Assembly (NCBI RefSeq): GCF_000373365.1
Contig: NZ_KB891203.1
Span: 1 to 64,000, forward strand
Origin: Parafrankia discariae
Lineage (GTDB): Bacteria; Actinomycetota; Actinomycetes; Frankiales; Frankiaceae
Direction of reading: 5' to 3'
Length of the DNA stretch: 64,000 nucleotides
Shown here: one piece after another, positions 10,447-46,708 of the stretch
Layout: every line of letters begins with the position of its first letter
Numbering within the stretch: position 1 is the first letter of the stretch
The notes under the pieces: model-generated
What the model was told of the DNA's origin: nothing
The model's database searches: none
What the model saw: the letters and a program-made list of their open reading frames with translations, nothing else
Made by a program: the position numbers and the translations under genes

Positions 10447-10497
10447 GAACGGTTCCTCTCGGAGGTCGTCGAGGGCGTTTGCGAGGGGCCAACTCCG

Positions 10498-11867: not shown

Positions 11868-11916
11868 AGAGCCCGGACTCACACGCCCTCGACATCACGC
11901 CCGGAGGACCACCGGG

Positions 11917-13320: not shown

Positions 13321-13340
13321 CGTGCCGGGCCGCCGACGGC

Positions 13341-13408: not shown

Positions 13409-13418
13409 TGGGGAAGAT

Positions 13419-14309: not shown

Positions 14310-14321
14310 CACACCCTTGTC

Positions 14322-14864: not shown

Positions 14865-14952
14865 AATGATCACCTGTTGAAGTAGCTGAGCCAGATTGCC
14901 GCGATCGCGGCGCGGTCCGCGGCGGAGACCTCGTGGAGGCCTGGGGCCAGGT

Positions 14953-15009
14953 CGCGACGCTGCGGCGGGGCCTCGGGGTGTGGGCGGGCCGTTGGAGGCC
15001 TCACGCCAG
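14953..15009. repeat. 57-bp repeat, copy 2 (3' flank of the zinc-ribbon gene)
   Basis: The second copy of the 13352-13408 element, with three differences. It fills most of the 14865-15020 gap between the zinc-ribbon gene and the NUDIX gene, both minus strand. A minus frame across it (14870-15133) is out of phase with the better-supported genes on both sides and is not called. Confidence 0.7.
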
Positions 15010-15020
15010 CAGGGAAAGGT

Positions 15021-15164
15021 TCAGACAGGGCTGCCGCTGCCGGGGCAGGTGCCACCGCCGGGCTTCTGGTGGATGTTGATGGTGCCGTTCCTGACTCCGG
15101 CACGCTGGCCGCAAACGGGGCAGGTTGCAGCATTGGCCAATAACGGGATGATAATGCCGTTCAC
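15021..15164 (-). CDS. 47-residue zinc-ribbon microprotein
   Basis: It starts at GTG 15164, which overlaps the preceding stop as GTGA, and ends with TGA at 15021. The product has T-C-P-V-C-G-Q-R, then a His and P-G-G-G-T-C-P-G-S-G. This C-P-x-C-G ... H-x-x-P-G-G-G-x-C-P-G-S-G pattern recurs at the ends of many actinophage and Streptomyces small proteins. Zinc binding is likely; the function is unknown. Confidence 0.75.
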   Translation of the reverse strand: MNGIIIPLLANAATCPVCGQRAGVRNGTINIHQKPGGGTCPGSGSPV

Positions 15165-15664
15165 ATTGCCTCCAGCCATTGATAGTCCTGTCCCGACTGC
15201 GGGGTGCGGCCAGCCGGGAGCGTCTGCAGGAAATAAAGATGACAGACGTTCCTGCGGTGGAACTCGATGTTCATGCCGTACTTGTGGAAGCCGTCTTTCT
15301 CGGACAGCACTCGTACAGCGGCAACCTCAGGGTTCCCACTGTTGAGGATCAGCGCCCGGAGGTACTGTTCAACGTCACGGGTGCGAACTTTTCCCCCGGA
15401 TAGCTCAAGGTCGGGCAGCGGGACCGGGGTTGGCGGTTCCCCCTCGACAATCGTCTCGGGCTGCGTGTGGTCGTCACCACCGGGCGGCGCCGAGGACACG
15501 ATGTTTGCGTAAAGGGAGCCACCGGACGCGAACGAGACGATCAGACCGTACGGACCGGCGCCCTTGAATCCCGCCTCTGCGAAGGTTTTGGCTTCGCGAA
15601 TCACTCCGCCCCCGCTGACCGGAATGAGCGCTTTGAGGAAGGGTTCAAATCGCTGAACACGCAC
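15161..15664 (-). CDS. hypothetical cargo protein
   Basis: A 167-residue protein with two similar-looking halves, each with a helix and a beta segment (F-L-K-A-L-I-P-V-S-G-G ... and Y-L-R-A-L-I-L-N-S-G-N ...), separated by a Pro/Asp-rich linker; it may contain a duplicated fold. The GTG at 15664 follows a strong AAAGGAGAG ribosome-binding site. It is coupled by GTGA to the downstream zinc-ribbon gene. I do not recognise the family. Confidence 0.7.
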   Translation of the reverse strand: MRVQRFEPFLKALIPVSGGGVIREAKTFAEAGFKGAGPYGLIVSFASGGSLYANIVSSAPPGGDDHTQPETIVEGEPPTPVPLPDLELSGGKVRTRDVEQYLRALILNSGNPEVAAVRVLSEKDGFHKYGMNIEFHRRNVCHLYFLQTLPAGRTPQSGQDYQWLEAM

Positions 15665-15728
15665 GGGCTCTCCTTTTGCGGACGGTCGTCGATGTCGTCA
15701 GGATATCGGCGCCTCCTAACGATCTCGG

Positions 15729-16010
15729 CTAGTGGTCGAAGAGGTTGTCGTACAGGCCCTGGCGGATCTCGGCCACGAACCGCGCCCAGGCCTGCGCGGG
15801 CACGATGAGGTCGGGCCCACGGCCGCAGCGCAGGATCACGGCCTGGCGGACCGCGCCGACGGCGAGGACGTCGGCGGCCGGCGTCGTGGCCTGCAGCCAC
15901 TCGACCGGACCCGAGACCCCCGACCCGGCGCCAGGGTCGCTCCAGTGGTCCGGGCCGCTCGGCGGGTCAGGTGTCGCGGTTCCCTGCGTCGGTGGGCTAT
16001 GACCGTCCAC
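15729..16010 (-). CDS. DUF397-like small protein
   Basis: A 93-residue protein starting at GTG 16010, with GAGGGAGA 6 nt upstream. Its C-terminal half (V-E-W-L-Q-A-T ... A-V-I-L-R-C ... W-A-R-F-V-A-E-I-R-Q-G-L-Y-D-N-L) follows the DUF397 pattern of a short beta-rich core and an F-x-x-x-I/V-R-x-G-x-Y/F-D ending. DUF397 genes usually pair with XRE regulators in actinomycetes, and large XRE genes sit at 11210 and 11917. The similarity is partial, so the call is tentative. Confidence 0.55.
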   Translation of the reverse strand: MDGHSPPTQGTATPDPPSGPDHWSDPGAGSGVSGPVEWLQATTPAADVLAVGAVRQAVILRCGRGPDLIVPAQAWARFVAEIRQGLYDNLFDH

Positions 16011-16086
16011 GGGTTTGTCTCCCTCGTCGGTGGGGTGGTCCGCGCCGAACCCGAGGCGTGTGGTGGCGCCGCGGGCCCGGCGCGCG

Positions 16087-16329
16087 TCATGCGGCCAGGA
16101 ACGGAACGACGAACCAGGCGTTGGGCTCGTCCTGGCGCTCGGTCCAGGCCTGCGCGGCTCGCCGGGTGCCGAACCAGTGGTTCGCCGAGACGGGTACGCC
16201 GTCGGCCATCCGAACCACGGTGAACAACGCTGGCGTGGGTGGGCGGTGGGCACCCCCGTTGCAGGTGCCCGCGCGGATCCGTAGCCGCATGTGGCGTTGT
16301 GGTCGTCGACTGCCGTTCACCAGCGACAC
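16087..16329 (-). CDS. small hypothetical protein
   Basis: Up to 80 residues. The C-terminal part (L-F-T-V-V-R-M-A-D-G-V-P-V-S-A-N-H-W-F-G-T) is a credible small beta-rich protein with a helix (T-R-R-A-A-Q-A-W-T). The start is uncertain: GTG 16329, GTG 16320 and ATG 16290 are in frame, and the Cys/Arg-rich N-terminus may be non-coding. The conserved box and palindrome at 16384-16441 lie upstream and could control it or the plus-strand gene at 16612. Confidence 0.55.
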   Translation of the reverse strand: MSLVNGSRRPQRHMRLRIRAGTCNGGAHRPPTPALFTVVRMADGVPVSANHWFGTRRAAQAWTERQDEPNAWFVVPFLAA

Positions 16330-16383
16330 CCCCGTGTCATCGTCCGTCCAGCTAGATCAGTTCACCGCGTTCGGGAGGCGGTG

Positions 16384-16415
16384 GCTAGTACGTGAGTACC
16401 AGTCACCTACATGTG
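16384..16415 (+). promoter_or_regulatory. 32-bp conserved box, copy 2
   Basis: Identical to the 11836 box at the outer 12 bp (GCTAGTACGTGA) and 16 bp (CAGTCACCTACATGTG), with GTAC in the 4-bp centre instead of TGAT. It lies between the minus-strand gene 16087-16329 and the plus-strand gene at 16612, in the same orientation as copy 1. A shared regulator or sigma factor is the likely reader. Confidence 0.65.
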
Positions 16416-16421
16416 CACTCC

Positions 16422-16441
16422 CGCCGTCACATGTGACGGCG
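16422..16441. promoter_or_regulatory. 20-bp perfect palindrome, likely operator
   Basis: CGCCGTCACATGTGACGGCG is a perfect 20-bp palindrome, 7 bp from the second conserved box, with a TCACATGTGA core that shares ACATGTG with the end of the box. Strict symmetry without a loop fits a dimeric DNA-binding protein better than an RNA hairpin. The first box copy lacks such a palindrome. Confidence 0.7.
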
Positions 16442-16611
16442 AGCACGCACAGAGAACGAACAGGGCAACTCATTTGAATACGCATAGTCATTCTTCGCAC
16501 AACAACCCGACAGAACCCACCACCGTGCGTCTTCCTAGCCTGCCCGGAGAGTTAGTTTTCGTATTGACAAGATGATCAATTGCGATCCGGGACCGAGTAG
16601 GGGGGCCAAGG

Positions 16612-16815
16612 GTGCTGGTCGAGACAACGGAGGACGCCACGAGCGTCGAGGAGCGCGAGGGGGGTCTCGTCCTGCTCGTCCGGCGAGCGGCCCTCGCCGA
16701 CGCCGACCTACGGGCGCTCCGAGCCGTGCTCGCGCCCGTCTCCGGCCGGATAGTCGGCTGCCCATACGCGCCGCGCCGCCGGCCGCGGCCGGGCCGGCCG
16801 CCCGGCCCTGGGTGA
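16612..16815 (+). CDS. 67-residue hypothetical protein
   Basis: GTG at 16612 lies 8 nt after AGGGGGG and opens a frame with a convincing small-protein sequence: acidic start (V-E-T-T-E-D-A-T-S-V-E-E-R-E), a beta-strand/helix middle (G-L-V-L-L-V-R-R-A-A-L-A-D-A-D-L-R-A-L-R) and a Pro/Arg tail. A TTGACA at 16564 may belong to its promoter. No family recognised. It is the only plus-strand gene between 13320 and the chromosome. Confidence 0.5.
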   Translation: MLVETTEDATSVEEREGGLVLLVRRAALADADLRALRAVLAPVSGRIVGCPYAPRRRPRPGRPPGPG

Positions 16816-16847
16816 CGTGGTTCCGAATCCACTGCCCGGGGCGGTGG

Positions 16848-17234
16848 TCACGTCAGCGGACTGGCTTCCTGGATCCGCTGCTTGTGGACGGCATCTGCGC
16901 CGTTGTAGAAGCCGGAGCGGTAGGACGGAGTGTCGCGGGTGTACCCGGCGGCGCGCGATGCCTCGGCGAGCTGGGGCATCTTGGGCGGGTGGTAGCCCTC
17001 GCGGGCCCAGTCTCGGACCGACATGAGGAGCGCGGACTCAAGCTCGGCCAGGGGAATACTGCGAGCCCACCTGGCGCCCGCCGACTCGCCCGCGACCCGG
17101 TCTGCCTTGCGCTGGGCACTGACGGCCAAACGGGCGGCATCATCTTCGCAGGCGGCCAGCTCGCGGACGTCATCGTCGGCCGTCACGCTGATCACCATGG
17201 GTTCGCGCGGGGCCGGCCCGTTCTCGATATTCAT
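16848..17234 (-). CDS. hypothetical cargo protein
   Basis: A 128-residue soluble, mostly helical protein. It has a cluster of acidic residues (T-A-D-D-D-V-R-E-L-A-A-C-E-D-D-A-A-R-L), a middle rich in Arg/Ala, and T-P-S-Y-R-S-G-F-Y-N-G-A-D near the end. The ATG at 17234 has no clear ribosome-binding site; ATG 17198 is an alternative. No family recognised. The 17235-17408 gap upstream holds one hairpin and no convincing gene. Confidence 0.6.
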   Translation of the reverse strand: MNIENGPAPREPMVISVTADDDVRELAACEDDAARLAVSAQRKADRVAGESAGARWARSIPLAELESALLMSVRDWAREGYHPPKMPQLAEASRAAGYTRDTPSYRSGFYNGADAVHKQRIQEASPLT

Positions 17235-17370
17235 CGCGGCAGTGTGCCAGAGGCTGCCGGAGCATCACCCGTCGAGTGCATAGAGGAACCGACCCGCTCC
17301 GGATGGCGGGGAATGCCGAGCTATCGGTGGGACGAATCCAGCTGCACGCCCTCGCATACGCGTCGAGGCT

Positions 17371-17390
17371 CCGCCGCATCTCCGCGGCGG
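17371..17390 (-). terminator. terminator-like hairpin after the toxin-antitoxin pair
   Basis: CCGCCGC and GCGGCGG form a 7-bp stem with a 6-nt loop (ATCTCC), 19 bp beyond the stop codon of gene 17409-17708 on the minus strand. Its place at the end of the two-gene unit makes a terminator the simplest reading. Confidence 0.55.
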
Positions 17391-17408
17391 GGGCTTCGAC
17401 GGTGGAGG

Positions 17409-17708
17409 TCAGACGGGTCTGTTCAGCGTGGCGAAGCTGTCGCAGCGCACCACGTGGTCGCGTTCGTCGATCCAGAAGGAGCAGCAGACCGCGCTCCAGT
17501 CCTTGTGTTCGGAGCGTGGGATGGAGGAGAACCAGAGGTTCGCGAACCCGGGTTCGCGGCGGGCGCCTTGATAGGGGTCATCCGTGCGGGTGAAGATCCA
17601 GGTGGTTACGAGCCGGCGAATCTCTTCAGGCGGCGATTCCAGCCCGATCCACAGGTCGAGTCGGTCGAGGAAGTTCACCAGCCGCCACGGCTCGGGAGTG
17701 TCAGGCAC
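17409..17708 (-). CDS. putative toxin partner of the Panacea-domain protein
   Basis: A 99-residue protein with P-E-P-W-R-L-V-N-F-L-D-R-L-D at the start, a helix (P-P-E-E-I-R-R-L-V-T-T-W-I-F-T) and a beta-rich C-terminal half (F-A-N-L-W-F-S-S-I ... A-V-C-C-S-F-W-I-D-E ... V-V-R-C-D-S-F), a layout compatible with a small RelE/BrnT-like fold but not diagnostic. The GTG at 17708 has GAGG 5 nt upstream and overlaps the Panacea gene by 8 bp, as in co-translated toxin-antitoxin pairs. The toxin role is inferred from that partnership. Confidence 0.6.
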   Translation of the reverse strand: MPDTPEPWRLVNFLDRLDLWIGLESPPEEIRRLVTTWIFTRTDDPYQGARREPGFANLWFSSIPRSEHKDWSAVCCSFWIDERDHVVRCDSFATLNRPV

Positions 17709-18252
17709 TGAGCCTCGCACGCAGCGCGTCGAGGTCGTCTGGGATGTCCGGCCCGCGGCGGTCGGCGGCGCCGGCGAGCCAGCGGGACACATCGGCGGAG
17801 TCCAGGGCGGGCTCATCGTCCTCGGCGTCGCCGGGCGCGCCGCCGGTGGCGAAGTACTCGCGCATGACGTCCAGCGAGATGGGCGCCGAAGTCCTGGGTA
17901 GGCGCCCGCGGTTGGCCTCGGCCCAAGGGGGCTCCCCGTGGCTGAGTACCTCCAGGTCGGTACCTGTCAGTGTGCCGTAGCGGCTCAGGACGTAGCCGAT
18001 CGTGTTCAGCTCCGCCTCGTCCAGCTCGGCGCCGCCGGGTGCTCCGGCCGGCCCGTTCCGCTCCTCGTACCAGAGCTGGCCGACTACGGGTCCCATGTCC
18101 CAGGCCGAAATCGTCTCGCCGAACAGCGGTTCACCGAAGGTCGCGAGGTGGTGACCCTGGCAGTAGTAGAGCATCTTGTGCAGCTTCTTCGTCCCCAGCC
18201 CAGGAAGCCGGCTGCGGAGGATGGCTGCCACGTCGCGCGCCGCAGTCGGCAT
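17701..18252 (-). CDS. Panacea-domain (DUF4065, SocA-like) antitoxin
   Basis: A 183-residue protein with the Panacea/DUF4065 core: K-K-L-H-K-M-L-Y-Y-C-Q-G-H-H-L-A near residues 22-37, then F-x-E-x-I-S-A-W-D-M-G-P-V-V, then the W-Y-E and L-S-R-Y-G elements. The domain is the hallmark of a widespread hyperpromiscuous antitoxin family that neutralises unrelated toxins. The ATG at 18252 follows AAGGGGG. It precedes and overlaps the small partner gene. The module probably stabilises the element or acts in phage defence. Confidence 0.82.
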   Translation of the reverse strand: MPTAARDVAAILRSRLPGLGTKKLHKMLYYCQGHHLATFGEPLFGETISAWDMGPVVGQLWYEERNGPAGAPGGAELDEAELNTIGYVLSRYGTLTGTDLEVLSHGEPPWAEANRGRLPRTSAPISLDVMREYFATGGAPGDAEDDEPALDSADVSRWLAGAADRRGPDIPDDLDALRARLSA

Positions 18253-18303
18253 GACGCCCCCTTGGTAGTCGTCGAGGATTGCCCAGGCTATCGCCGGCCA
18301 CCG

Positions 18304-19380
18304 TCAAAATCTGTCGGCCAGCCCCAACCGAGCGTGGGCGTTACGGGCGCGGCGGCGCTGGCCGGCCGCGCCGTAGCGCTCGACCATCTCGTGGGACGTC
18401 CAGCCAGCGTGGATCATGAGGGCGCCGCGGTCACCGCCGTTGTCGAGCCAGTCGTCGGCGAGCTTGCGGCGGAACTCGTGCCAGTGGGTGCCTGGGCGGC
18501 CGATGAGCAGGCCGCGGCGTTCGATGAGCTGCCCGAGGCCGGAGTGGGTGAGCGGCGCCGTGCCGGTCTCGTTGAGCCAGATCGCGCCGGTCTGGTCCGC
18601 GTACGGCTTGCCGGCGCGTAGGCGCTGGTAGCGGCCCAGGCTCAGGGCAGTGGTGCGCCCGATGCCGGGGATCCGCTGTTTGCCGCCCTTACCGGTGACC
18701 TTGATCGTGCGCAGGTGGAGATCGACGTCGGCAACCGTCATGCCGGCGACCTCCGCGCGCCGGGCGCCGAGGTCGAGGAACGTTCTGATCATCGCCTGAT
18801 CCCGGATGGCGACGAACCGGGCGCGCTCGTCGAACTTCGGATTGCCGGTCTTCACCGCCACGCACGAGGCGAGCAGCGCGCGGACGTGGTCGTCGGTGAG
18901 CTCGGCCGGGATCCGCTGGTCGACCTTCGGCGCCTTGATGCGCTCCATCGGGCTGCGGTCGATGTCCTCCTCGTCGAGGAGGTAGGCCATCCACTGCTGC
19001 AGCGCCCGGAAGACCTGATTCGCGTACGCCTGGCCGGGACCGTTCGGGCAGCGCGGGGTCGGGGTGGCCCGGAACGCGACCAGGAACGCCTCGACGTGCT
19101 GACGGGTGATCTCCTCGGGCCCGGCCGGGCGCGGGAGCGCGGGCCGCCCGGCGTGGTCGACGGCGCCTTCGGCCGGGGTCTCCTCGAGGGCCAGGAGCCA
19201 GGCGACGAACAGCCGGCCGGCGTGCAGGTAGATCCGGCGCGTGTTCGGCTTGCGGTCGGCGGACTCGAGAGACAAGTCCCAATTGATCAGGAGCAGGTTC
19301 CACATCGGATCTGCGACGGTCGGGCCGTGGGACAGGGGTCCGCCCGGCGGACGGAGCGTAGGGGTGATCGTCGAGGACAC
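18304..19380 (-). CDS. int: tyrosine recombinase/integrase
   Basis: A 358-residue site-specific recombinase. The N-terminal SAM-like core-binding domain lies at residues about 30-150. The catalytic domain has R207/R208 in D-L-G-A-R-R-A-E-V, a Lys in K-G-G-K-Q-R (231-235), H301-E-F-R304, H324 in M-I-H-A-G-W, and nucleophile Y336 in M-V-E-R-Y-G. All catalytic positions are present, so the enzyme should be active. The GTG at 19380 has no clear ribosome-binding site; ATG 19305 is possible. It sits 155 bp from the tRNA-Val 3' end and probably catalyses integration there; no excisionase gene is obvious nearby. Confidence 0.9.
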   Translation of the reverse strand: MSSTITPTLRPPGGPLSHGPTVADPMWNLLLINWDLSLESADRKPNTRRIYLHAGRLFVAWLLALEETPAEGAVDHAGRPALPRPAGPEEITRQHVEAFLVAFRATPTPRCPNGPGQAYANQVFRALQQWMAYLLDEEDIDRSPMERIKAPKVDQRIPAELTDDHVRALLASCVAVKTGNPKFDERARFVAIRDQAMIRTFLDLGARRAEVAGMTVADVDLHLRTIKVTGKGGKQRIPGIGRTTALSLGRYQRLRAGKPYADQTGAIWLNETGTAPLTHSGLGQLIERRGLLIGRPGTHWHEFRRKLADDWLDNGGDRGALMIHAGWTSHEMVERYGAAGQRRRARNAHARLGLADRF

Positions 19381-19535
19381 GGGGCGGGAGCATAGGAAGA
19401 GCCCGGCACCCTGGCAACATCGTGATCTTGCAGAATTAATCGCTGTGGGAGCGCAGAGCCCGGAGCCCCTTGACGGGACATGATCGAGATTAATAGGGTC
19501 CGTGGCTGTTCAGCCGCCGTGTGGGACCGGGTGGG

Positions 19536-19607
19536 TGGGCGCGGCAGGGATCGAACCTGCGACCACTCGCTTGTAAGGCGAGCGCTCTCCCGCTGAGCTA
19601 CGCGCCC
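19536..19607 (-). tRNA. tRNA-Val (UAC)
   Basis: Read on the minus strand, a 72-nt cloverleaf: acceptor GGGCGCG/CGCGCCC with discriminator A, D-arm GCTC/GAGC, anticodon arm CTCGC-CTTACAA-GCGAG with anticodon UAC, and T-arm with GTTCGATC. The encoded tail is CCC, so CCA must be added post-transcriptionally. The 3' end faces the integrase gene. The 19381-19535 stretch between them contains A/T-rich ATTAAT patches and is the likely attachment region. Confidence 0.93.
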
Positions 19608-36431: not shown

Positions 36432-36509
36432 ATGCCCAACGCGCACCGCGTTCCAGCACCCGCCCAGGCCGCCGCCGGCCGCCCTGCCCCGGTCGACGTC
36501 CACCGATGA
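36432..36509 (+). CDS. 25-residue leader or antitoxin remnant before relE
   Basis: ATG 36432 follows AGGG and a -10-like GTTAGGGT, and the 25-codon frame ends in an ATGA overlap with the RelE-like gene. The peptide is Ala/Pro-rich and far too short for a normal RelB/Phd antitoxin. It may be a translational leader or the remnant of a lost antitoxin. Confidence 0.4.
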   Translation: MPNAHRVPAPAQAAAGRPAPVDVHR

Positions 36510-36784
36510 GCGACAAGCACGAGGTGACGCTGTCCCCCTCGGCGGAGCGGGACCTGGCGAAGCTGCCCGAGCTGCTCAGCGCCGAGGTACGCCGGTTCCT
36601 GGACGGGCCGCTGCGCAACGATCCCCGCAAGGCGGGTACGCCGCTCGCCGGCGAGAGCCAGGTGGGCATGTTCGAGGCGACCGGGCGCGGCTGGCGGGTG
36701 CTGTACCGGGTCGACGCGAACACCCGGACGGTCCGGGTGATGATCGTCGGGCGGCGGCAGACACCGTCCCGGCTGCCCTTCTGA
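36506..36784 (+). CDS. RelE/ParE-family toxin-like protein
   Basis: A 92-residue protein with the RelE fold order: V-T-L-S-P-S-A-E-R-D-L-A-K-L-P (helix 1), F-L-D-G-P-L, G-T-P-L-A-G, then the beta sheet G-R-G-W-R-V-L-Y-R-V-D and V-R-V-M-I-V-G-R-R. RelE-type toxins cut mRNA on the ribosome. ATG 36506 overlaps the short leader frame by 4 bp. No full-length antitoxin gene adjoins on either side, which is unusual. Confidence 0.8.
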   Translation: MSDKHEVTLSPSAERDLAKLPELLSAEVRRFLDGPLRNDPRKAGTPLAGESQVGMFEATGRGWRVLYRVDANTRTVRVMIVGRRQTPSRLPF

Positions 36785-36818: not shown

Positions 36819-37400
36819 CTAGGAGACGTTGACGCCGAAGTCGAGCGCGATGCCGCGCAGGCCCGACGCGTAGCCCTGCCCGACGGCCCGGAACTTCCAC
36901 TCGGCGCCGTAGCGGTAGAGCTCACCGAAGATCATCGCGGTCTCGGTCGAGGCGTCCTCGGTGAGGTCGTACCGGGCGACCTCGGCGCCGGTCGTCGCGT
37001 CCGCCACCCGGATGAAGGCATCGCGGACCTGACCGAAGGTCTGCCGCCGGGCGTCCGCGTCGTAGATCGACACCGCGAAGACCACCTTGCTGGCCTGCGG
37101 GGAGAGGATCCGGAGATCGACGGTGATCTGCTCGTCGTCGCCCCCGCCGCCGCCCACGAGGTTGTCCCCCAGGTGGGTCACGGCGCCGTCCGGGCTGACC
37201 AGGTTGTTGAAGAACACGAAGTGGCTGTCCGACAGCACACGGCCTGAGTCACCCACGACGATCGCCGAGGCATCGAGGTCGTACGGCGCGCCGGTGGTCT
37301 GACGGACCTGCCAGCCGAGGCCGACGGTCACCGCCGTCAGGTTGGGCGCGACCTTGCTGAGCGAGACGTTCCCGCCTTTGGACAGCGACACCGAGGACAT
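36819..37400 (-). CDS. terD: TerD-family protein
   Basis: A 193-residue TerD protein with the expected [12 protein letters not shown] start, [24 protein letters not shown] and the D-D-E-Q-I calcium-binding blocks, then A-M-I-F-G-E-L-Y-R near the end. TerD binds Ca2+ and occurs in tellurite-resistance and stress clusters; a single copy without other ter genes suggests a general stress role. ATG 37400 lacks a good ribosome-binding site. It is divergent from the SMC operon, across a 359-bp gap. Confidence 0.92.
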
Positions 37401-37759
37401 GTCGTGAGCGTAGTACCGCTCTCGGGCGCGCGGCATCCTCTCCCCCGCACTCGCCTCGTCCGCCCTCGCTCTGTTGTTCGGCCTGTTGTGCCGCCCCTGA
37501 TTCAGGCCGGCTCCTTGGACGGGGTCCGCGGGCCGGTCACCCACCGGCGGCCTGGTCCGGCACCTGCCCCGGCCAGGACCACACCTGCCCGCGCGGGGCC
37601 GGATCGACCCCCGGTTAGGGTGCCAGAGATGGAGATCCGCCAGGCACCGCCGGGCCCGGCCGAGCCGGCCCGCGCCGTGCCGGCCTGGGCTGTGTCGGCC
37701 CGTGCCGTCCCGTCCCGTGCCGTGTCGTGCCACGCGGTCGACCGGGACCGGGCCGGCCG
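37401..37759. promoter_or_regulatory. divergent region between terD and the SMC operon
   Basis: Holds the promoters of both. The part at 37670-37735 is a run of CCGTGCC/CCGTCCC-type near-repeats without clear symmetry; the part near 37461-37510 is somewhat less G/C-rich (TCTGTTGTTCGGCCTGTTG) and may contain a promoter. No gene, hairpin or operator is recognised. Confidence 0.4.
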
Positions 37760-39283
37760 ATGACCCCCACGACCACGGCGACCGTCGCACCCGCGGCGGT
37801 CGCCGACACCGGGATGACCCGGCGCCGCAAGGCACTCGCGCTCACCCAGCCGCTGCACGACCTGGACGCCAGGAAGTCGTACCTGGAGGGCGCCGACTTC
37901 GACGTCTACGCGATGGCCGAGCTCGCGCTGCACGCCATCGACCTGGTCACCGTGGCCATGGATTTCGACCGGGGTGCGGACCACGAGCAGGTGCTACGCA
38001 AACTCGTTCCGCTGGCCGCCGACCAGGCACCCGACCGGCCGCGGGCCGAACACGAGCGGGTCGCCCGGTGGGTGCTGAGCAACCTGATCAACGTCGGCAG
38101 CGTCGACCGCGGGTTTGACGTCATCTACGGCACCTACCGGGCCGACGGCCGCTACGTGCGCCGGCGGTTCGACTTCAAGTTGCTCGTCGAGCTGACGGGC
38201 AGCGGCGGCGAACTGTATCTGCGCGCCACGGACGAGGCGGTGACCGTCCTCGTCGGCGCGCTCGACACGGACGTGACCTCCGCGCAGATCGCGGCCGAGG
38301 TGACACTGGACAACCTGATCCGCCGCGGCCGACTGGCCGACGCCCGGACGGCGGCGGAGTCCGCGCGGTACCGGACCGTCCAGTACGCCGAGCAGCTGCG
38401 CCGCCAGCTCGACGCGACGCGACGCAACGTGCTGGCGGTGGACTGGCTGCGCGCGGTACCGGCGCTGCTGGACGAGGCGCTCAGCCACGTCGAGCAGCGG
38501 TACCGGCACGAGAACGCGATCCTGACCCACATCCGGCGCTACCGCGACGCGGCCGACGACGCCGATCACAAGCGGCAGGCCGCCGAGCTGGTCGCGATCG
38601 TGGCGGACTGCGTCCGCCGCCACACCCAGCTCCAGGCGCGCCTGCTCGAGGCGGGCGCGGTCTTCCGCGCCGAGCAGGATCGCCAGCAGTTCGCGGATGC
38701 CCCCGCGCGCGACGGGATCGACCTCTACACACAGATCCTGATGCCCGTCCTGGCCCTGCCGGTGACGACGGCGTCGGCTCCGGCCGCCGCGTTCTTCCCA
38801 GCCGCCGTGGGCGTACGCACGCCCCGGACCGTACGCCTCGTCGACCTGGTCGACGGACTCCTGGCGCCACCCACCGAGCAGGAGGTGCTCGGGCCTCCTG
38901 TGGTCGAGGCGGACCTGGTCTCGCTGCGCGAGCCGGCGCGGTTCGACGACGAGACCTGGTCGGCCGCGACGGCGATCCTGGAGATCGCGCCGGAGAAGCC
39001 GCGACGGCTGTCGGAGCTGCTCGCGCGGGCCCGGCGGGCGGGTGGCGCGGACGTGGCCGAGCTGGTGGTGCTGCTCGCCGCGCACGCGCTGAGCCCGCAG
39101 GTCTCCGCAGCCGCGCGCCAGGGTGACGACGTCGTGTCGGTCGCCGTCGATGACGGCGTCGAGCTGGATGACCCCTGGTTCGGTGGCGCCGACCTCCTCG
39201 TCGGCCGGGTACGTCTCGGAGCCGAGGGCGCCGATGCCGGCGACCTCGTTCCCCCACCCACCACGATCCGGAAACAGGCGTGA
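37760..39283 (+). CDS. MukF/JetA-like kleisin subunit
   Basis: A 507-residue mostly helical protein, first in a three-gene SMC operon. The N-terminal 200 residues look like winged-helix/dimerisation helices ([14 protein letters not shown] and [15 protein letters not shown]), the middle is a long charged helical bundle ([23 protein letters not shown]), and the C-terminal 120 residues form another small domain. The assignment rests on gene order (kleisin, wHTH, SMC), size and helical pattern; direct sequence similarity was not tested. ATG 37760 is used. The next gene overlaps as GTGA. Confidence 0.65.
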
Positions 39284-40293
39284 CAACAACCCACGAGCCC
39301 GTCGCCGCGCCGGGGCACGCCCCGGGCGTGGCCAGCCCTCGTCCCGAGGCCCCCGCGGCGTTCCCGACCGCCGCGACCGCCGCGACCGCTCCCGAGGAGA
39401 CCACCGCCCCCGAACGGAACGCCCGGCGTGAGCACGGCGACGCGTTCGACGCGGCCCGTCTGATCGCCTACGGCCTGCGGCCGAAGCTGGTGCCGGCGCG
39501 GGACGGGGCGTACGCCGAGCTCGTGCGGCGGCATCTGCGGGACCAGGAGTTCGCGGCGCTGACCCAGGCCGTCGCGGGTGGCCTCGGGCTGGTCGTCCTG
39601 GACGTGGCGGAGCGGGCCGGACTGGTGGTCGCGGGAGCCGAGGACTCCGCCTTCACCGTCCGGATGACGGACTACGCGCGGCGGGCCGGCGGTGAGCACC
39701 GGTCGGCCGAGCGTCTTCTGCACGCGATCGCGCAGCTCGCCGTCGCCGCGATCGCGTTCCCCCGACCGGCCGACCTGCTCGACGACTCCTATGTGGGCCG
39801 GGTCAGTGTCGAGGGAGTGGACGCGTTCGTCCGCGAGGCCTGCCGGCTGCTCGCGGAGCGGGTCGCCGCCGACCCGGACGCCGGCTCGGACACCGAGGCC
39901 GACCCGGTGGACGGCCGGCGGACACTCGAGGCCGCCTGGCGCCTGTACGCGCGCCGCCCGGCGGCGGGGACGACTCGGGACGCCCGCCGGCTCGCCGGGT
40001 CGACCACCGGGATCATCGCCCGGGCGATGAGCTTCCTCGCCGACTCCGGCTGCCTGGTGGCGGTGAGCGAGCAGGCCGGTGGCACGTTCCGCACCACGGC
40101 GCGCTATCAGATACAGGTGCGCGAGCTGGCGGCCGACGCGGCACTGGAGGAACTGCTCGACCTCGGCGTGGTGACGGTGGCCGACGGCTCGGGGGGTGTC
40201 CGGGTGCTCGAGGCCGAGCCCGTTCTGCCCGGCACCGAGGCCGGCCGGACGAGTGGGCCACCGCACGTGGCACCGGAGGCGGACGATGTTTGA
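39280..40293 (+). CDS. MukE/JetB-like winged-helix subunit
   Basis: A 337-residue protein with a disordered Pro/Ala-rich N-terminus of about 50 residues, then two winged-helix-like domains: F-D-A-A-R-L-I-A-Y-G-L near 60 and R-R-L-A-G-S-T-T-G-I-I-A-R-A-M-S-F-L-A-D-S-G-C-L-V around 240, followed by R-Y-Q-I-Q-V-R-E-L. MukE-type proteins bridge kleisin and DNA. The GTG at 39280 overlaps the upstream stop by 4 bp and the next gene starts 8 bp before this stop, so stoichiometry is probably set by translational coupling. Family inferred from operon context. Confidence 0.6.
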   Translation: MTTTHEPVAAPGHAPGVASPRPEAPAAFPTAATAATAPEETTAPERNARREHGDAFDAARLIAYGLRPKLVPARDGAYAELVRRHLRDQEFAALTQAVAGGLGLVVLDVAERAGLVVAGAEDSAFTVRMTDYARRAGGEHRSAERLLHAIAQLAVAAIAFPRPADLLDDSYVGRVSVEGVDAFVREACRLLAERVAADPDAGSDTEADPVDGRRTLEAAWRLYARRPAAGTTRDARRLAGSTTGIIARAMSFLADSGCLVAVSEQAGGTFRTTARYQIQVRELAADAALEELLDLGVVTVADGSGGVRVLEAEPVLPGTEAGRTSGPPHVAPEADDV

Positions 40294-43200
40294 GCTCTCC
40301 AAGGTGCGACTCCATTCGATCGGGCCGCCAGGGGCGCGGTTCGGCGATGTGCTGCTCGACTTCTCCGGGGTGGGGGCGCCCGTCACCGGGCACCGTCAGG
40401 ATGCGCTCTTCAACGCCGGCGTGGCCGCCCCTGAGGCAGACGGGGACAGTGAGAGCACGGAGCGGCGGACCGGCGCCGCGGCGGGCAGCGGTGCCGGCGG
40501 TGGCAGTGGGAGTCCCGGTAGCAGTGCCGGTGGCAGCGGTGCCGGTGACGACGGTGCCGCCCGGCCGGTCCGGCCGTCGCCCGCGTCCGTGCTGTTCCTG
40601 GAGAACGGCGGCGGCAAGAGCGTCCTGATGAAGTTGATCTTCTCGGTGGTACTCCCCGGCCGCCGGCAGGTCGTGGGCACCTCGAACGGCCGCGTGCTGG
40701 ACAACTTCGTCCTCGCCAGGGACTGCGGGCATGTCGTCTGCGAGTGGCAGCACGCCGTCACCGGGGAGCGGGTCGTCACCGGCAAGGTCAGCGAGTGGCG
40801 CGGGCGGGCGACCGGTGACGCGTCCCGGCTCGCCGAGGCCTGGTACTCCTTCCGGCCGAGCGCGGCGCTGGACATCGCCACCCTTCCCCTCGTCCGCGAC
40901 GGACGGCTGGTCACGCTCGCCGGCTTCCGTACCCGGCTCGCCGAGGCCGGCGCGGCGGACCCGAAGCTCACGCTGACCTGGGAGACGCACCAGGGCGCCT
41001 GGAGCGAGAACCTCGACGCCATCGGCCTGGACCCGGAGCTGTTCCGCTACCAGCGGGCGATGAACGCGGGCGAGGGGGAGGCCGCGGAGGCGTTCTCGTT
41101 CAACAGCGACGAGCAGTTCATCGACTTCCTGCTGCGCGCCGTCACCCCGCCGGAGGATCCCGCCGGCGTCGCCGAGGTCGTCGACGGCTACGCGGCGAAG
41201 CTCGCCGAGCGGGCGGCACTCGACGCCGAACGGGAGTTCGTCGCCGGCGCGCTCGAACGGCTCAACCCGCTGGTCGAGGCGGTCGAGGCACGCGCGGAGT
41301 CCGCGGCGGCGCTGCGGGCGCTGCTGGCGACGGTGCGCGGCGCGGCCGGCGCCGTCGAGGCGCGGATCGCGTTCGACCGCGCGGGGGCGACCGAGCTGGA
41401 CGCCCGCGGCCAGTCGGGCCGGGATGCCGCCGAAGAGGCCGAAGGGGCCCGGCGGCGCGCGGTCGACACCGAGCTCGCGGCGCGGCTGCGGGTCGCCGAG
41501 CTGCGGCTGGCCGCGGCCGAGACGACCCGCGACGAGCTCGTCGAGCGTTTCGCGGCGGCCAACGAGGAGCTGGACGCGTGGCGCGCCGCCGAGGACGTCC
41601 TGCGGCATGCCGCCGCCTCGGGCGAGGCCGAACGGCTGACCCGGCTCGTCGAGGAGGCCGAGTCCCGCTCGGCGCCGGCCCTGGCCGACCGGGACGCCGC
41701 CGCCCGCGCCCTGGTCGTCGGGCTGGCCCGGCTCGCGGCGGCCTCGGACGCGGAGGAGAGCCGGGCCCGCGCGGCCGCCGCGGCCCACGACCTGGCCGCC
41801 GAGTCGGCCGCCACGGCGGACCGCGCCGCCGCCGACGCCGCGGCCACAGCACGCGCGGGCGCGGCGGCGCTGCGGGAGCGACGCGCCCGGTCCGCGCAGG
41901 TGCTCGCCGACTCGGTCCGGGACGGCCTGCTCCCCTCCGCCGACGTCGATCCCCGGTCGGCGGCCACCGAGGCCGCGCGGGCGGCGGACGAGGCCCGCGC
42001 CGCCGTCCAGGACGCGCTCGCGGCCGCGACCCGTTCCACGGACCGGGAACGGGCCCAGGACGCCGCCCGCACCGCCGAGCGCGAGCTGGACACCGCGCGC
42101 GCCGAGCTCGCCCGGCTCACCGGTGAACTCGAGCAGGCGCTGGCCGGGGCACGCGCCCTGACCGCCGACGGCCGGATAGCCGCCCTGCTGGGCCTCGGCA
42201 CCGGGCCGGACCGATCCGACGAGCCGGACCGCGCCGATCCACCCGCGGACCGCGCCGATCCGCTCGCGGACGAGACCGGTCCGCCCACGGCCGGGTCGGT
42301 CGCCCCGGGCTCCGCCCACCACCTCGACCCGGTGGATCTGGACACCGACGCGCGCGCCGCGCTGGACGCGCTCGCCGCGGCGGTCCGGGCCGCCGAGGAA
42401 CGCCAGCTGACGCTGTCCGTCGACGCGGAGGCGGATCTGCGGGTGCTCAACGCGCTCGGCGACGGGGACCTGCGGCCGGCGCGGCCGGCGGTCGGCGACG
42501 TCCTGGCGGTGCTGACCCGGGCCGGCATTCCCGCGATCTCCGGCTGGCAGCATCTCTCCCGGTCGGTGGCCGCGGCCGACCGTGAGCGGGTGCTCGCCGC
42601 CCGTCCCGACCTGGTGGACGGCGTCGTCGTGCCGGCCGGCTGGGACGTCGGCGCCGCGCACGCGGCACTGGCCACGGCCCGGCTGTTTCCCGACTGCGCG
42701 ATCGTGGTCGGGGCCACCGAGCTGCTGTCGGCCGCGGCGTCGCCCGACCACCCCCGCCACGCCACCGCCACCGACCCCGCCGACGCTGTCGACGCCGCCG
42801 ACGCCGACCCCGCGGGCAGCGCCGTCAGCGCGGGTACCGGGCAGGCGTTCCTCGTCCCGCCGAACCCGGCGCTGTACGACCGGGCCGCCGCCGCGGCCGA
42901 GCGGGAGTCCGTCCGGCGCCGGCACGAGGAGCGCAGTGCGCGGGCGGCCGAGCTGAGCGCGCGGGCGCGGGCCGACCGCGAGCTCGCCGCGGCGGTCGCC
43001 GGCTGGCGCCGGGCCAACCCGCCGGGACGGGTCGCGGGCCTGCGCGCCGCCGTCCGCGCCGGCCAGGACACTGTCGACGCCGCGCGGCACGCGCTGGCGG
43101 CCGCCCGCGAACTGGTCGGGCAGGCCGTCCGCGCCGCCGAGCTGGCGGTCGCCGAGGTCGAACGCCTGCGCGTGGTGGAGGAGGAGCGGACGGCCCGCGC

Positions 43201-45523
43201 CGCGGCGCTCGACCTGCTCGTCCACGCCGTCGAGGAGTCGGTGGGAGCCGACAGCGAGATCACGCTGCTGGCGGCGGTCGCGGCCCAGCGGGCCACCGAG
43301 GCCGAGGAGCATCGGGCCCGGGCCGCGGCCGCCCGGGCAGCCGCCCAGGACGCGCTGCGGCGGGCCGACGACGCCGCGCGCAACGCCCGGGTGGCGCGGG
43401 CGGAATCAGCCGAGGTGGCCGGCGGCGGCGACCTCGACACCGGCGGCGACACCGACGGCACCGACACCGCCGACACCGGCAGCGGTGCGGACGGCGCCGG
43501 GTCCACGGTGGGCGGGCCGCCACCGCAGGTCCCGCTGCTGCGGGCCGCCCACGAGTCGGCCGAGCGGGCGTACGCGCAGGTCGAGGTCGGCGCGGACCTA
43601 CGCGGCGAGCTCGACCGCGCGCGGCGGGCGCAGGCGGCGGCGCGCGGTGCCGTGGAGGGGCTGCCCGCCGCCGTCCGCACCCGTTCGGCGGCGCTGCTGG
43701 CCGGTCCGAACGGCGGCGACGCGGCCGCGCGGGCGACCGCCCAGGCCGCCTCCCGGCGCGTCGCGGCGGACCTCGGCCGCGAGCTCGACGGGGCGCGGGA
43801 GCGGCTCGGCGGGCTGCGCCAGGAGCTGCGCCACACCGCCGCCGAGGTGGCCGACGCCGGAGCACGGCCGCTGGCACGGGACGAGGGCCCCGCCACGATG
43901 GAGCAGGCCCGCGACGCGCACCGGGCCGCCGTCGAGGCGCTGCGCGAGTCGGAGGCCGCCGTCCGGGCGGCCCGGGCCGCGTTGGACGAGCTGGAACGCC
44001 ACACCGCGGCGCACGAACGCGAGGTGGACGCCTTCGGTCTCGTCACCGAGACGCTGTCCGAGCTGCTCGCGGACGCCGAATCGACGGTGGCCGGCACGAG
44101 CGAGCGCGCCGGTGCCACGGGCTCCGGCACCGGAGCCGGCACCGAAGCCGGAGCCGGCCCGGGAACGGGAGCCGGACCGGGAACGGGAGCCGGACCGGCG
44201 GGCTCCGCCGGCTGGCCGGACGGCGCCGTGGCCGCGTTCGGCGGGGACACCGCCGCGGCCACCGCGATGGCCCGCGAGCTGCGGTCGTCCTGGCGGCAGG
44301 CGGTGGTGGCGCACGGCGAAGCGGCGGGCCGGGTACGGGCCGCCGCGGACGCCGTGGCCGCCTGGGCCGCGACCGACCGCTTCGAGTCAGTCCGTTCCCC
44401 GGCCCGCCGGCAGATGGTGCGGGCCGGCCGGGACGCCGTGGCCGCGAACGCCGGCGACTGGGCCGCGGCGCTCGCGCCCCGCCTGCGCAGCCTCGACGAC
44501 GACCTGGCGCACATCGGCCGCAACCGGGCCGCGATCGTGGCCCGGCTCGAGGGCATGGTGCGGGCCTCGCTGGGCACGCTGCGCTCGGCGCAGCGGCTGT
44601 CCCGGCTGCCCGACCGGCTCGGCGACTGGTCCGGCCAGGAGTTCCTGCGCATCACCTTCACCGAGCCGGACCCGGTGGCGCTCACCGACGCGCTCGGCGA
44701 GGTGGTGGACGCCGCCGCGCGCGGTTCGGTCACCCCGGGGCCGGCGTCCACGGGTGCCACGACGGGCGCCGCCGCGGGCGGACCTGGCGGGCCCGTTCCG
44801 GCCGGGGCCCGCCGGGACGGCATGACGCTGCTGCTGCGCGGCGTGCGCGCCGCGCTCCCCGGCGGGGTGCGGGTCGAGATCCTCAAGCCGGACGCGGTGC
44901 TGCGCACCGAACGCGTACGGGTCTCCCAGCTCGGCGACGTGTTCTCCGGCGGCCAGCAGCTCACCGCGGCGATCATCCTGTACTGCACCATGGCGGCCCT
45001 GCGGGCCAACGACCGTGGACGGCTGCGCGCCCGGCACGCCGGCGTGCTCTTCCTCGACAACCCGATCGGACGGGCCAGCGCCGCCTACCTGCTGGACCTG
45101 CAGCTCGCGGTGGCCGACCGGCTCGGGGTGCAGCTGATCTACACCACCGGCCTGTTCGACACCACCGCACTGAGCGCCTTCACCCTCGTCATCCGGCTGC
45201 GCAACGACGCCGACCTGCGGGCGGGGATGAAGTACCTGCGGGTCCAGGAACGGCTGCGCCCGGGGCTGACCCCGCCGGACGTCGCGGCCGGCGGCGCAGC
45301 CGGAGTGATCACCGCCAGCCGCCTGTTCCGCCGGACGGCACCCGGCGCACCGCCCGGGACACCCACCCCGGCCGCGCCGGCCGCGACACCAGTGCCGGCC
45401 ACGACACCAGTGCCGGCCACGGCATCAGCGCCGACCGCGACGTCTGCGCCAGCCGCACCGTCAGCGCCGACCGGGGCCGGCCGGGAGGCCGCCGTCGGCA
45501 CGAACGCCCATAGGGGACCGTGA
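40286..45523 (+). CDS. MukB/JetC-like SMC ATPase
   Basis: A 1745-residue SMC-type ATPase. The N-terminal head has the P-loop L-E-N-G-G-G-K-S-V-L at about 105-113, preceded by a Gly/Ser-rich insertion (about 55-95). The body is a very long Ala/Glu/Arg coiled coil (about 330-1500) with a central hinge-like region near 700-850. The C-terminal head has signature F-S-G-G-Q-Q-L-T-A-A (about 1553) and Walker B G-V-L-F-L-D-N-P-I-G-R-A-S (about 1587), then Y-T-T-G-L-F-D, as in MukB/JetC. All motifs are intact. The ATG follows GGAGG. Tandem P-G-T-G-A-G repeats lie at 44155-44205. Confidence 0.85.
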   Translation: MFELSKVRLHSIGPPGARFGDVLLDFSGVGAPVTGHRQDALFNAGVAAPEADGDSESTERRTGAAAGSGAGGGSGSPGSSAGGSGAGDDGAARPVRPSPASVLFLENGGGKSVLMKLIFSVVLPGRRQVVGTSNGRVLDNFVLARDCGHVVCEWQHAVTGERVVTGKVSEWRGRATGDASRLAEAWYSFRPSAALDIATLPLVRDGRLVTLAGFRTRLAEAGAADPKLTLTWETHQGAWSENLDAIGLDPELFRYQRAMNAGEGEAAEAFSFNSDEQFIDFLLRAVTPPEDPAGVAEVVDGYAAKLAERAALDAEREFVAGALERLNPLVEAVEARAESAAALRALLATVRGAAGAVEARIAFDRAGATELDARGQSGRDAAEEAEGARRRAVDTELAARLRVAELRLAAAETTRDELVERFAAANEELDAWRAAEDVLRHAAASGEAERLTRLVEEAESRSAPALADRDAAARALVVGLARLAAASDAEESRARAAAAAHDLAAESAATADRAAADAAATARAGAAALRERRARSAQVLADSVRDGLLPSADVDPRSAATEAARAADEARAAVQDALAAATRSTDRERAQDAARTAERELDTARAELARLTGELEQALAGARALTADGRIAALLGLGTGPDRSDEPDRADPPADRADPLADETGPPTAGSVAPGSAHHLDPVDLDTDARAALDALAAAVRAAEERQLTLSVDAEADLRVLNALGDGDLRPARPAVGDVLAVLTRAGIPAISGWQHLSRSVAAADRERVLAARPDLVDGVVVPAGWDVGAAHAALATARLFPDCAIVVGATELLSAAASPDHPRHATATDPADAVDAADADPAGSAVSAGTGQAFLVPPNPALYDRAAAAAERESVRRRHEERSARAAELSARARADRELAAAVAGWRRANPPGRVAGLRAAVRAGQDTVDAARHALAAARELVGQAVRAAELAVAEVERLRVVEEERTARAAALDLLVHAVEESVGADSEITLLAAVAAQRATEAEEHRARAAAARAAAQDALRRADDAARNARVARAESAEVAGGGDLDTGGDTDGTDTADTGSGADGAGSTVGGPPPQVPLLRAAHESAERAYAQVEVGADLRGELDRARRAQAAARGAVEGLPAAVRTRSAALLAGPNGGDAAARATAQAASRRVAADLGRELDGARERLGGLRQELRHTAAEVADAGARPLARDEGPATMEQARDAHRAAVEALRESEAAVRAARAALDELERHTAAHEREVDAFGLVTETLSELLADAESTVAGTSERAGATGSGTGAGTEAGAGPGTGAGPGTGAGPAGSAGWPDGAVAAFGGDTAAATAMARELRSSWRQAVVAHGEAAGRVRAAADAVAAWAATDRFESVRSPARRQMVRAGRDAVAANAGDWAAALAPRLRSLDDDLAHIGRNRAAIVARLEGMVRASLGTLRSAQRLSRLPDRLGDWSGQEFLRITFTEPDPVALTDALGEVVDAAARGSVTPGPASTGATTGAAAGGPGGPVPAGARRDGMTLLLRGVRAALPGGVRVEILKPDAVLRTERVRVSQLGDVFSGGQQLTAAIILYCTMAALRANDRGRLRARHAGVLFLDNPIGRASAAYLLDLQLAVADRLGVQLIYTTGLFDTTALSAFTLVIRLRNDADLRAGMKYLRVQERLRPGLTPPDVAAGGAAGVITASRLFRRTAPGAPPGTPTPAAPAATPVPATTPVPATASAPTATSAPAAPSAPTGAGREAAVGTNAHRGP

Positions 45524-45649: not shown

Positions 45650-46708
45650 TCAGCCGGCCGGGCAGGGGCGCACCTCGACGGACCCGTCGGTCGTCGAGCT
45701 CCGGCCGTCGAGGTCGGTCGCCACCACGGTGTAGGTGATCGTTCCCGCCGTCGGCGCCGGCCCGACCGGCCCGGACCAGGTCGACCGGTCGTCCACCGCC
45801 GTGACCAGCTGAAGCGGGGTGGTGGTGGCCTGTCCGTCCGGCGCCCGGGTGCGCACCTCGACGCCGAGGACGCCCGTAGGGTCGACGACCGTGGCGGTCA
45901 CCGTCGCCTGCGTCGCACCCTGATCACCGGCGCAGCCGCTGGTGAGGATGGCGGTCGGCGCGGCCGAGACGCCGCTGAGCCCCGGCGCCCCGGAGACCCG
46001 CGCGGTGATCCGCAGGTCCCCGCCGCCGGAGCCGTCGACGGCCGAGACCGGGACGTCCAGGTCGATCGAGCCCGGCGGGGCCGTCGCCCGGTCCAGGGTC
46101 ACCACCAGCGGTACCTGGGCACCCGGATCGACGACCTCCTGCCCCGGGACGACGCTCACCCACCCGGGCGTGTCACCGACCCGCACCCGCGCCGGTGACG
46201 TCCCGACGCCGAGCAGGTCGACCCTGATCGTCGACTCCACCTCGCCGAAGTCGACGTCGGTGCGGCTCAGCCCGATCGCCGGCCCGGCCGTCGCGGTCCC
46301 GCGCGGACCGTCGGTGCCCGCTCCCGGGCGGGCCGGCGCGGCCGTGCCTGCCACCTGGGACGGCTCCGGGGCCGCCGAGACCCCGGAACCCTCCGCGGAC
46401 CCGGACAGCCCGGGCGCCCCGACCGCCCCGACGGGGACCGGGCCGCTCGCCGACGGCGACGGAGTCGGCGGGGAGGCGACGGAGGTCGACACGACGATGC
46501 TGGTCCGCGCTCCGGCCGGGTCCCGCGTCGCGGACGGCGGCTCCGACCCGCTGTTGTGGACCAGCAGCAGGGTCGTGACCAGGGCCGCCGCGGCCCCCAC
46601 CGCGGCCGCGACCCGCCCCCACCGAATGGGGAGGATCCGTTTGGAGCGCCCCCAGGGAGAACGGTGCCGGCCGGCGGGACCAATCTCGTCCGCCATCCGT
46701 TGTGCCAT
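45650..46708 (-). CDS. membrane-anchored Ig-like/BACON domain protein
   Basis: A 352-residue protein: short cytoplasmic N-terminus, one membrane helix at about 34-54 (V-A-A-A-V-G-A-A-A-A-L-V-T-T-L-L-L), a Ser/Pro/Gly-rich stalk to about 140, then two beta-sandwich domains. The first (T-D-V-D-F-G-E-V ... R-V-R-V-G-D-T-P-G-W-V-S-V) follows the BACON/ASPM-SPD2-like pattern; the second is an Ig-like fold with paired Cys. It is probably displayed outside the membrane to bind ligands or sense a signal. ATG 46708 is used; TTG 46729 is possible. It converges with the SMC operon. Confidence 0.72.
   Translation of the reverse strand: MAQRMADEIGPAGRHRSPWGRSKRILPIRWGRVAAAVGAAAALVTTLLLVHNSGSEPPSATRDPAGARTSIVVSTSVASPPTPSPSASGPVPVGAVGAPGLSGSAEGSGVSAAPEPSQVAGTAAPARPGAGTDGPRGTATAGPAIGLSRTDVDFGEVESTIRVDLLGVGTSPARVRVGDTPGWVSVVPGQEVVDPGAQVPLVVTLDRATAPPGSIDLDVPVSAVDGSGGGDLRITARVSGAPGLSGVSAAPTAILTSGCAGDQGATQATVTATVVDPTGVLGVEVRTRAPDGQATTTPLQLVTAVDDRSTWSGPVGPAPTAGTITYTVVATDLDGRSSTTDGSVEVRPCPAG

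Follow-up and report, generated by a model that had tools for sequence, protein, structure and literature searches.

The stretch of DNA analysed here, called the window below, comprises 64,000 nucleotides of Parafrankia discariae (contig NZ_KB891203.1, positions 1 to 64,000) and carries an operon of three genes, jetA, jetB and jetC, whose products correspond to the kleisin-like subunit, the KITE (kleisin-interacting tandem winged-helix element) subunit and the structural maintenance of chromosomes (SMC) ATPase of type III Wadjet, and which lacks the gene of the fourth component, the nuclease JetD (Table 1). The arrangement of three overlapping genes with no fourth, recognised in a first-pass annotation of this DNA, was borne out by the codon-position model, under which jetA, jetB and jetC are all coding, by the relatives, in which the block is conserved, and by the annotation of the flanks; the overlaps are of 4 bp between jetA and jetB and of 8 bp between jetB and jetC. 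The flanking genes are, as had been described there, a divergent terD, now matched by its Pfam family, and an unrelated convergent gene, for which no Pfam family was found.

Table 1. Positions in the window of the three-gene operon, of the motifs of JetC and of the flanking features
Feature	Position	Strand	Basis or remark
jetA (type III), kleisin-like, 507 aa	37760..39283	+	PADLOC JetA3 and predicted fold
jetB (type III), KITE/winged-helix-like, 337 aa	39280..40293	+	Identity to four-gene JetB and predicted fold
jetC (type III), SMC ATPase, 1745 aa	40286..45523	+	PADLOC JetC3
Gly/Ser-rich lineage-specific insertion, N-terminal head of JetC, about residues 51-98	40436..40579	+	
Walker A / P-loop FLENGGGKS, JetC residues 104-112	40595..40621	+	
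ATP-binding cassette (ABC) signature FSGGQ, JetC residues 1553-1557	44942..44956	+	Motif
Walker B GVLFLDNP, JetC residues 1586-1593	45041..45064	+	Asn1592 (45059-45061) at the catalytic Glu position
Intergenic region terD/jetA (divergent), presumed operon promoter	37437..37759		Position only
terD	36819-37436	opposite	PF02342, E 1.4e-77; upstream flank of jetA
Convergent gene without Pfam family	45650-46600		Downstream flank of jetC

Family identity and motor motifs

The product of jetA was matched by the PADLOC family JetA3 (PDLC00567; 616 bits, residues 23-499 of a 518-aa frame) and that of jetC by JetC3 (PDLC00588; 1325 bits), with the P-loop and the signature present, which places both proteins in type III. 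The jetB product was matched weakly by JetB3 (E 0.019), and its assignment to type III follows from the gene position, from 27-55% identity to its counterparts in 13 four-gene operons of type III, and from a JetB/MukE-like predicted fold. At E up to 1, jetC was matched in PADLOC by JetC3 families and by no JetC1 family, which speaks against membership in type I, while the search of Pfam and NCBIfam at the same threshold returned no MukB, MukE, MukF, MksB, SMC, ScpA or ScpB family for the three proteins, nor any other credible family for any of them. Thus, the first description of the operon as JetA/B/C- or MksF/E/B-like stands in its former half, by the type III assignments of PADLOC, and fails in its latter half, no such family having been found in Pfam or NCBIfam. 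As judged from the sequences, the operon is composed of JetA, JetB and JetC of type III Wadjet and is not a MukBEF or MksBEF operon.

MukBEF and MksBEF are complexes of three subunits, a kleisin, a KITE protein and an SMC ATPase, without a nuclease, and JetA and JetB resemble MukF and MukE in their predicted folds. An ordinary condensin of this family is nevertheless an improbable explanation of the locus, because no Muk, Mks or SMC family is matched at E up to 1, the JetA3 and JetC3 matches are overwhelming and no JetC1 family is matched; by analogy, the three-gene complex may work like MukBEF without being a member of that family. The AlphaFold2 models of JetA and JetB, built with 34 relatives, reached mean pLDDT (predicted local distance difference test) values of 80.5 and 79.9, respectively. 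The nearest structure to the JetA model was MukF (Foldseek E 1.8e-4 to 9gm7_C; in VIA, Z 13.6 to 7nz2_C1 and Z 13.4, 2.6 A over 143 residues, to 3rpu_A), and the nearest to the JetB model were MukE and JetB, which occupy rows 1-9 and 11 in Foldseek (best E 6.1e-3), with a JetB, 8as8_C, as the top VIA row (Z 8.0, 5.7 A over 181 residues). Unrelated proteins score close to these in VIA, namely CorA with Z up to 13.0 for JetA and LmrR with Z 7.2 for JetB, as well as 14-3-3 rows, and the folds are therefore taken as supporting evidence, with the use of solely those Muk and Jet rows that also top the Foldseek results. They point to a resemblance to the MukF-like kleisin and the MukE-like KITE fold, which type I JetB fits equally. 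In the searches of sequence profiles against the PDB, JetA matched designed TIM barrels over a short stretch, which was judged to be chance, JetB gave nothing convincing (E 0.11 or worse), and for JetC no relative was found.

The first-pass annotation had further described the P-loop, signature and Walker B of JetC as intact, which holds for the first two and for the Walker B Asp, but not for the catalytic Glu, the position of which is occupied by Asn (FLDNP). The P-loop is identical in 75 of the 75 jetC reads of the window and the fetched relatives. SMC ATPases commonly use as catalytic base a Glu that follows the Walker B Asp, and the type I JetC of the same genome has it (FLDE). The Asn was considered as a mark of a dead, nuclease-less motor, and this was ruled out, for it is shared by the four-gene type III JetC: it follows the Walker B Asp in 65/65 three-gene and 24/24 four-gene sequences (17/17 and 7/7 further ones), all of Actinomycetota. 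It is therefore a trait of the type III JetC compared here and not a consequence of the loss of JetD, and type III Wadjet may, from its sequence, hydrolyse ATP in a different way.

The Gly/Ser insertion near the P-loop and the large size of the ATPase, both pointed out at the first inspection, are real, although the insertion is poorly conserved, its columns consisting of gaps to 69% in the 65 three-gene rows and to 87% in 16 four-gene rows. The 1745 aa of the JetC from the window compare with 1529-1852 aa (median 1570) in 63 three-gene copies and with 1392-1537 aa in 17 of 18 four-gene copies, the last one being called at 1067 aa; the size is due largely to low-complexity insertions.

The closest known system is thus the four-gene type III Wadjet (JetABCD3) of Streptomyces, Frankiaceae, a Rhodococcus plasmid and other Actinomycetota, with which the operon shares the JetA3 and JetC3 families, the gene order, a JetB of 27-55% identity and the Walker B Asn, whereas the four-gene copies have JetD3 directly after jetC, are patchy in occurrence and partly plasmid-borne, and show a higher jetC substitution ratio (see below) than the three-gene copies of Streptomycetaceae. 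The type I Wadjet and the MksBEFG of Corynebacterium are likewise built on an SMC-kleisin-KITE motor, but differ by the type I families, the presence of MksG/JetD and the FLDE Walker B; MksBEFG of Corynebacterium acts in plasmid defence (PMC10123090). The PADLOC definition of Wadjet demands all four genes, the MukFEB cases being reported as 'other' (PMC9252829). The three-gene operon, having the parts of Wadjet III and being condensin-like on the interpretation developed below, is outside that four-gene definition.

Absence of JetD and distribution of the operon

No JetD3 was detected in the six frames of the window, and the absence is more than the local loss that the first-pass annotation had named as a possible refutation. 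The whole assembly of the same organism (G000; 7.89 Mb in 194 contigs, 99.64% complete) gave no match to the type III JetD family PDLC00594 at E 1e-5. JetD_C was matched once at E up to 1, by a type I JetD (PADLOC JetD1, 319 bits), which ends a separate operon with JetC1, JetB1 and JetA1 matches (L099:1517-8610, contig C131). The type I jetA of this genome is split over two overlapping frames (7079-7771 and 7735-8610), which reflects either a genuine interruption of the gene or a fault of the assembly. In the former case, the only JetD of the genome may have no intact motor of its own, which would favour an action of that JetD, or of another one, in trans on the three-gene motor. Such an action is very improbable, because this JetD is of type I and terminal in its own type I operon, and because JetD is rare where the three-gene operon is common: JetD_C was matched at E 1e-5 in one of the eight Streptomyces-genus genomes of the phylum sample, namely G193, which carries a four-gene type III copy, and no JetD3 match at E 1e-5 was obtained in 179 of 200 Streptomyces genomes.

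The family PF09983 alone was too insensitive for type III JetD, with no match at E 1e-5 in two JetD3-bearing genomes (G042, G162), and therefore JetD3 was searched for with PDLC00594 and with a profile made for this analysis. The latter, made of 21 JetD3 sequences and run on six frames without filters to E 0.01, recovered JetD in its source four-gene loci and in four plasmid loci outside its building set. Among one genome per species from 84,980 species, 463 stretches encoding JetA relatives were found, and the best 80 of these 463, all from Frankiaceae and Streptomycetaceae, were fetched; no JetD was detected with the profile in any of these best 80. Sixty of them include the whole jetC and more than 1.2 kb beyond it, 19 reach a contig end too early, and in the remaining one (L007) jetC is interrupted by an assembly gap. 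No JetD remnant was found beside any three-gene copy with the same profile in frames of 40 aa or more, and in 63 three-gene loci the next same-strand gene is never closer than 150 bp to the end of jetC, at a median distance of 942 bp. A same-strand gene of about 740-1020 aa, located downstream in many Streptomyces loci, was considered as a replacement effector and dropped, because of its weak histidine-kinase matches, all below cut-offs in the one copy scanned, its distance from jetC and its absence from Frankiaceae, where it was not found in 7 loci.

JetA3 was matched in 197 of the 200 genomes of the genus Streptomyces, with low scores in two of the 197 (G403, E 3.9e-101; G436, E 1.2e-30), while the three without it are two assemblies of more than 1,000 contigs and one that is 95% complete with 6% contamination. 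JetD3 of at least 150 bits occurs in 15 of the 200, and weak matches of 27-42 bits in 6 more. Strong JetD3 was present in 14 of the 15 genomes with at least two JetA3, against 1 among the 182 that have one JetA3 (Fisher p 2.4e-19). In this last genome (G505), the JetD-bearing operon is truncated by the contig start immediately ahead of the JetB position and is therefore missing its JetA. Thus, JetD accompanies an extra copy, and the copy found nearly throughout the genus is without JetD. Both types are held, for instance, by G193, with a four-gene operon (L092) and a three-gene operon with Streptomyces neighbours (L093).

In Frankiaceae, JetA3 was found in 19 genomes, with 23 loci; 12 of the 19 are without JetD3 at E 1e-5, three have matches below 30 bits only, G319 has roughly half of a JetD, and G306, G324 and G327 each possess a JetD3-bearing copy together with a second JetA3 locus. 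A further genome of the family (G329) has JetD3 without a JetA3 match. All six genomes of the genus of the window contain JetA3. In the class sample, the 48 JetA3-positive genomes out of 295 all belong to Frankiaceae or to the genus Streptomyces, and in the phylum sample JetA3 was matched in 13 of 296 genomes, 4 of which have JetD3. Four plasmid-borne relatives were found, all with JetD, and no phage record had a JetA relative at E 1e-5.

Descent, selection and putative role

In the JetA tree of 104 rows, the three-gene copies fall into two strongly supported clades, of Frankiaceae and of Streptomycetaceae, which also include 20 rows with the operon end outside the view, and in a concatenated JetA, JetB and JetC tree, a quick and unrooted one without bootstrap from 23 chosen rows of the 104, the 13 three-gene rows form one clade among 10 four-gene rows (SH-aLRT, Shimodaira-Hasegawa-like approximate likelihood-ratio test, 99.8). 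Short duplicates (L082-L091) and JetA reads of less than 400 aa were left out of the former tree, L094 and L095 out of the latter, and L125 and L126, the JetA of which was missed by the gene caller or cut by the contig, out of both. A loss of JetD, and not a gain, is suggested, because all the deep type III rows with a judgeable operon, but one, have JetD; it would be a single event, close to the root of the Frankiaceae and Streptomycetaceae copies or earlier.

The setting of the operon is conserved within each family. Thus, in the fetched 10 kb, 51 of 56 Streptomycetaceae loci have 5-oxoprolinase-type, pyroglutamyl-peptidase or associated genes, and 51 of 56 have a conserved gene that matches histidine kinases weakly, the oxoprolinase set being upstream and the weak histidine-kinase gene downstream according to the gene lists of the loci; in Frankiaceae, terD is present in 6 of 7 loci and the gene at 45650 in all 7. 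None of the 13 neighbour genes compared is common to the loci of the two families. The ratio of nonsynonymous to synonymous substitution rates (dN/dS) is below 0.45 for jetA, jetB and jetC in all the pairs tested, a sign of purifying selection, and in 14 Streptomycetaceae pairs it amounts to 0.05-0.21 for jetA and 0.10-0.19 for jetC, whereas jetC gave 0.28-0.33 in four four-gene pairs. Of the residues that do not vary among nine four-gene relatives, most are retained (JetA 61/72, JetB 24/29, JetC 101/131), and those switched to another fixed residue number 1 in JetA, 0 in JetB and 0 in JetC; the idea that a lost JetD interface is marked by switched residues was given up with this one conservative change only.

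These data bear on the explanation by a decaying Wadjet with a local loss of JetD. Decayed-looking type III pieces do occur, such as about half a JetD in G319, a short one in G315 and jetC pieces in G279, and yet decay is hardly credible for the operon of the window, given the dN/dS below 0.45 throughout, the long open frames and invariant motifs in relatives, the absence of JetD remnants, in frames of 40 aa or more, beside the three-gene copies, and their position in one clade instead of scattered losses. As separate observations, the partial JetD pieces of the two Frankiaceae (L114:1402-2055 in G319 and L115:1438-1710 in G315) are perhaps the remains of a decayed four-gene Wadjet.

The explanation slightly favoured here is that of a type III Wadjet motor which lost its nuclease once and is now a core SMC complex in Streptomyces, probably acting on the chromosome; the wider proposition, that a plasmid-defence SMC complex became, through a single nuclease loss, one that organises the chromosome as part of the core equipment of Streptomyces and its relatives, is given about an even chance. 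On the model of MukBEF and type I JetABC, in which a dimer of motors captures and extrudes DNA (PMC10586767), JetA would bridge and dimerise the JetC motors, with JetB sitting on the kleisin, and DNA would be captured and extruded into loops by ATP cycles of JetC. In Wadjet, cleavage by JetD probably sets in once extrusion exhausts the DNA of a small circle. JetABC without JetD would thus move and fold DNA, an encounter with a small circle being unable to finish in cleavage, and it would act on the own multi-copy chromosome as an accessory condensin beside Smc-ScpAB. The latter, an SMC motor with kleisin and KITE partners, belongs to different families, and the canonical SMC and ScpB are encoded elsewhere in the genome of the window. 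An accessory condensin is the simplest reading, because the genus Streptomyces, whose members are mycelial and contain many copies of the chromosome, has retained the operon almost throughout in addition to Smc-ScpAB.

A possible, though clearly less probable, alternative is that the complex still serves defence, JetABC sensing small circular or invading DNA and acting with an unlinked effector or through compaction or silencing, as Smc5/6 restricts viral circles without cutting. The nearest relatives are indeed operons of the plasmid-defence type, including the four plasmid-borne ones with JetD, and the residues of JetABC are so little altered relative to the four-gene copies that the sensing of DNA shape could persist; a defence complex with an unlinked and unrelated effector would, moreover, show the same conservation, which counts against the condensin interpretation. 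On the other side, the presence in 197 of 200 Streptomyces in a mostly conserved setting is not what would be expected of a defence gene, the copies with JetD being patchy (15/200), and neither a common neighbour (0 of 13) nor a gene close behind jetC offers itself as the effector.

Several further points weigh against the chromosomal role or the single loss. The JetA tree by itself leaves the sisterhood of the Frankia and Streptomyces three-gene clades unsettled, and the tree that unites them has the limits stated above. In the exceptional deep row (L095, G279), JetD3 was not found and jetC is reduced to short pieces, and one Streptomyces genome (G485) has two JetA3 and no JetD3. JetA3 is dispensable in Frankiaceae, since it is present in only 19 of 35 genomes, and the contrast in selection is weaker there, because the jetC dN/dS of two Frankiaceae pairs is 0.33-0.37, which matches the four-gene level. 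No residue signature of a new role emerged from the comparison of four-gene with three-gene copies, and the Asn at the catalytic Glu position of JetC may bear on the rate of the ATPase.

If the interpretation as a nuclease-less accessory condensin is true, nearly every Streptomyces has a second condensin, so far outside the chromosome biology of the genus, in which folding was studied through Smc, the word Wadjet being absent from both texts on the subject (PMC8410768, PMC13121528). It would also be a traceable change from defence to housekeeping, a type of event that so far has been no more than a proposal for how MukBEF and MksBEF arose. In a 2023 review, the questions of where Wadjet came from and how it is related to the other SMC complexes were treated as unresolved, and a descent of MukBEF and MksBEF from Wadjet was offered as speculation (PMC10586767). 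Wadjet was reported to be enriched in Actinobacteria and, in Streptomyces, often located towards the chromosome ends, with three-gene and four-gene sets not separated in the relevant passages of that survey (PMC10482375). In the literature searched, that is, titles and abstract openings, with subscription journals and preprints mostly outside, no description of a JetD-less JetABC in Streptomyces or Frankia was found. Accordingly, the operon is not the undescribed system supposed at first as regards its components, which were already known, while the clade, its near-universality in Streptomyces and the loss of JetD were not found described. A plasmid-defence reading of JetD-less 'Wadjet other' calls in Streptomyces and relatives is not warranted untested, and the coexistence of three- and four-gene versions in single genomes, such as G193, makes the effect of dropping JetD directly testable.

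Minor observations in the window and at other loci

The deep row set apart above, from a distant actinobacterium (L095:8735-12823), shows JetA3 and JetB followed by short jetC pieces and then by other genes, and is a type III operon either truncated or mis-assembled. Weak JetD3-like matches in frames of 470-609 aa were noticed at L104-L109 and L134, in six Actinomycetota genomes without a JetA3 match; two of these frames include one stop read through, and no jetABC lies in the 16 kb of L134, the one inspected. They are possibly stand-alone Toprim nucleases.

Adjoining terD in the window, a ParE-like toxin gene is located at 36506-36784 (+), with a PF05016 match of 25 bits, barely above the cut-off, and a homologue of it is among the called genes in 10 of the 80 fetched loci. 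The region of about 307-19305 is a dense minus-strand array of mostly short genes, with a replication-initiation/HNH-like protein, matches to phage-type repressors, and an integrase which adjoins a tRNA-Val gene (19534-19607); this array is probably an integrated phage-like or conjugative element.

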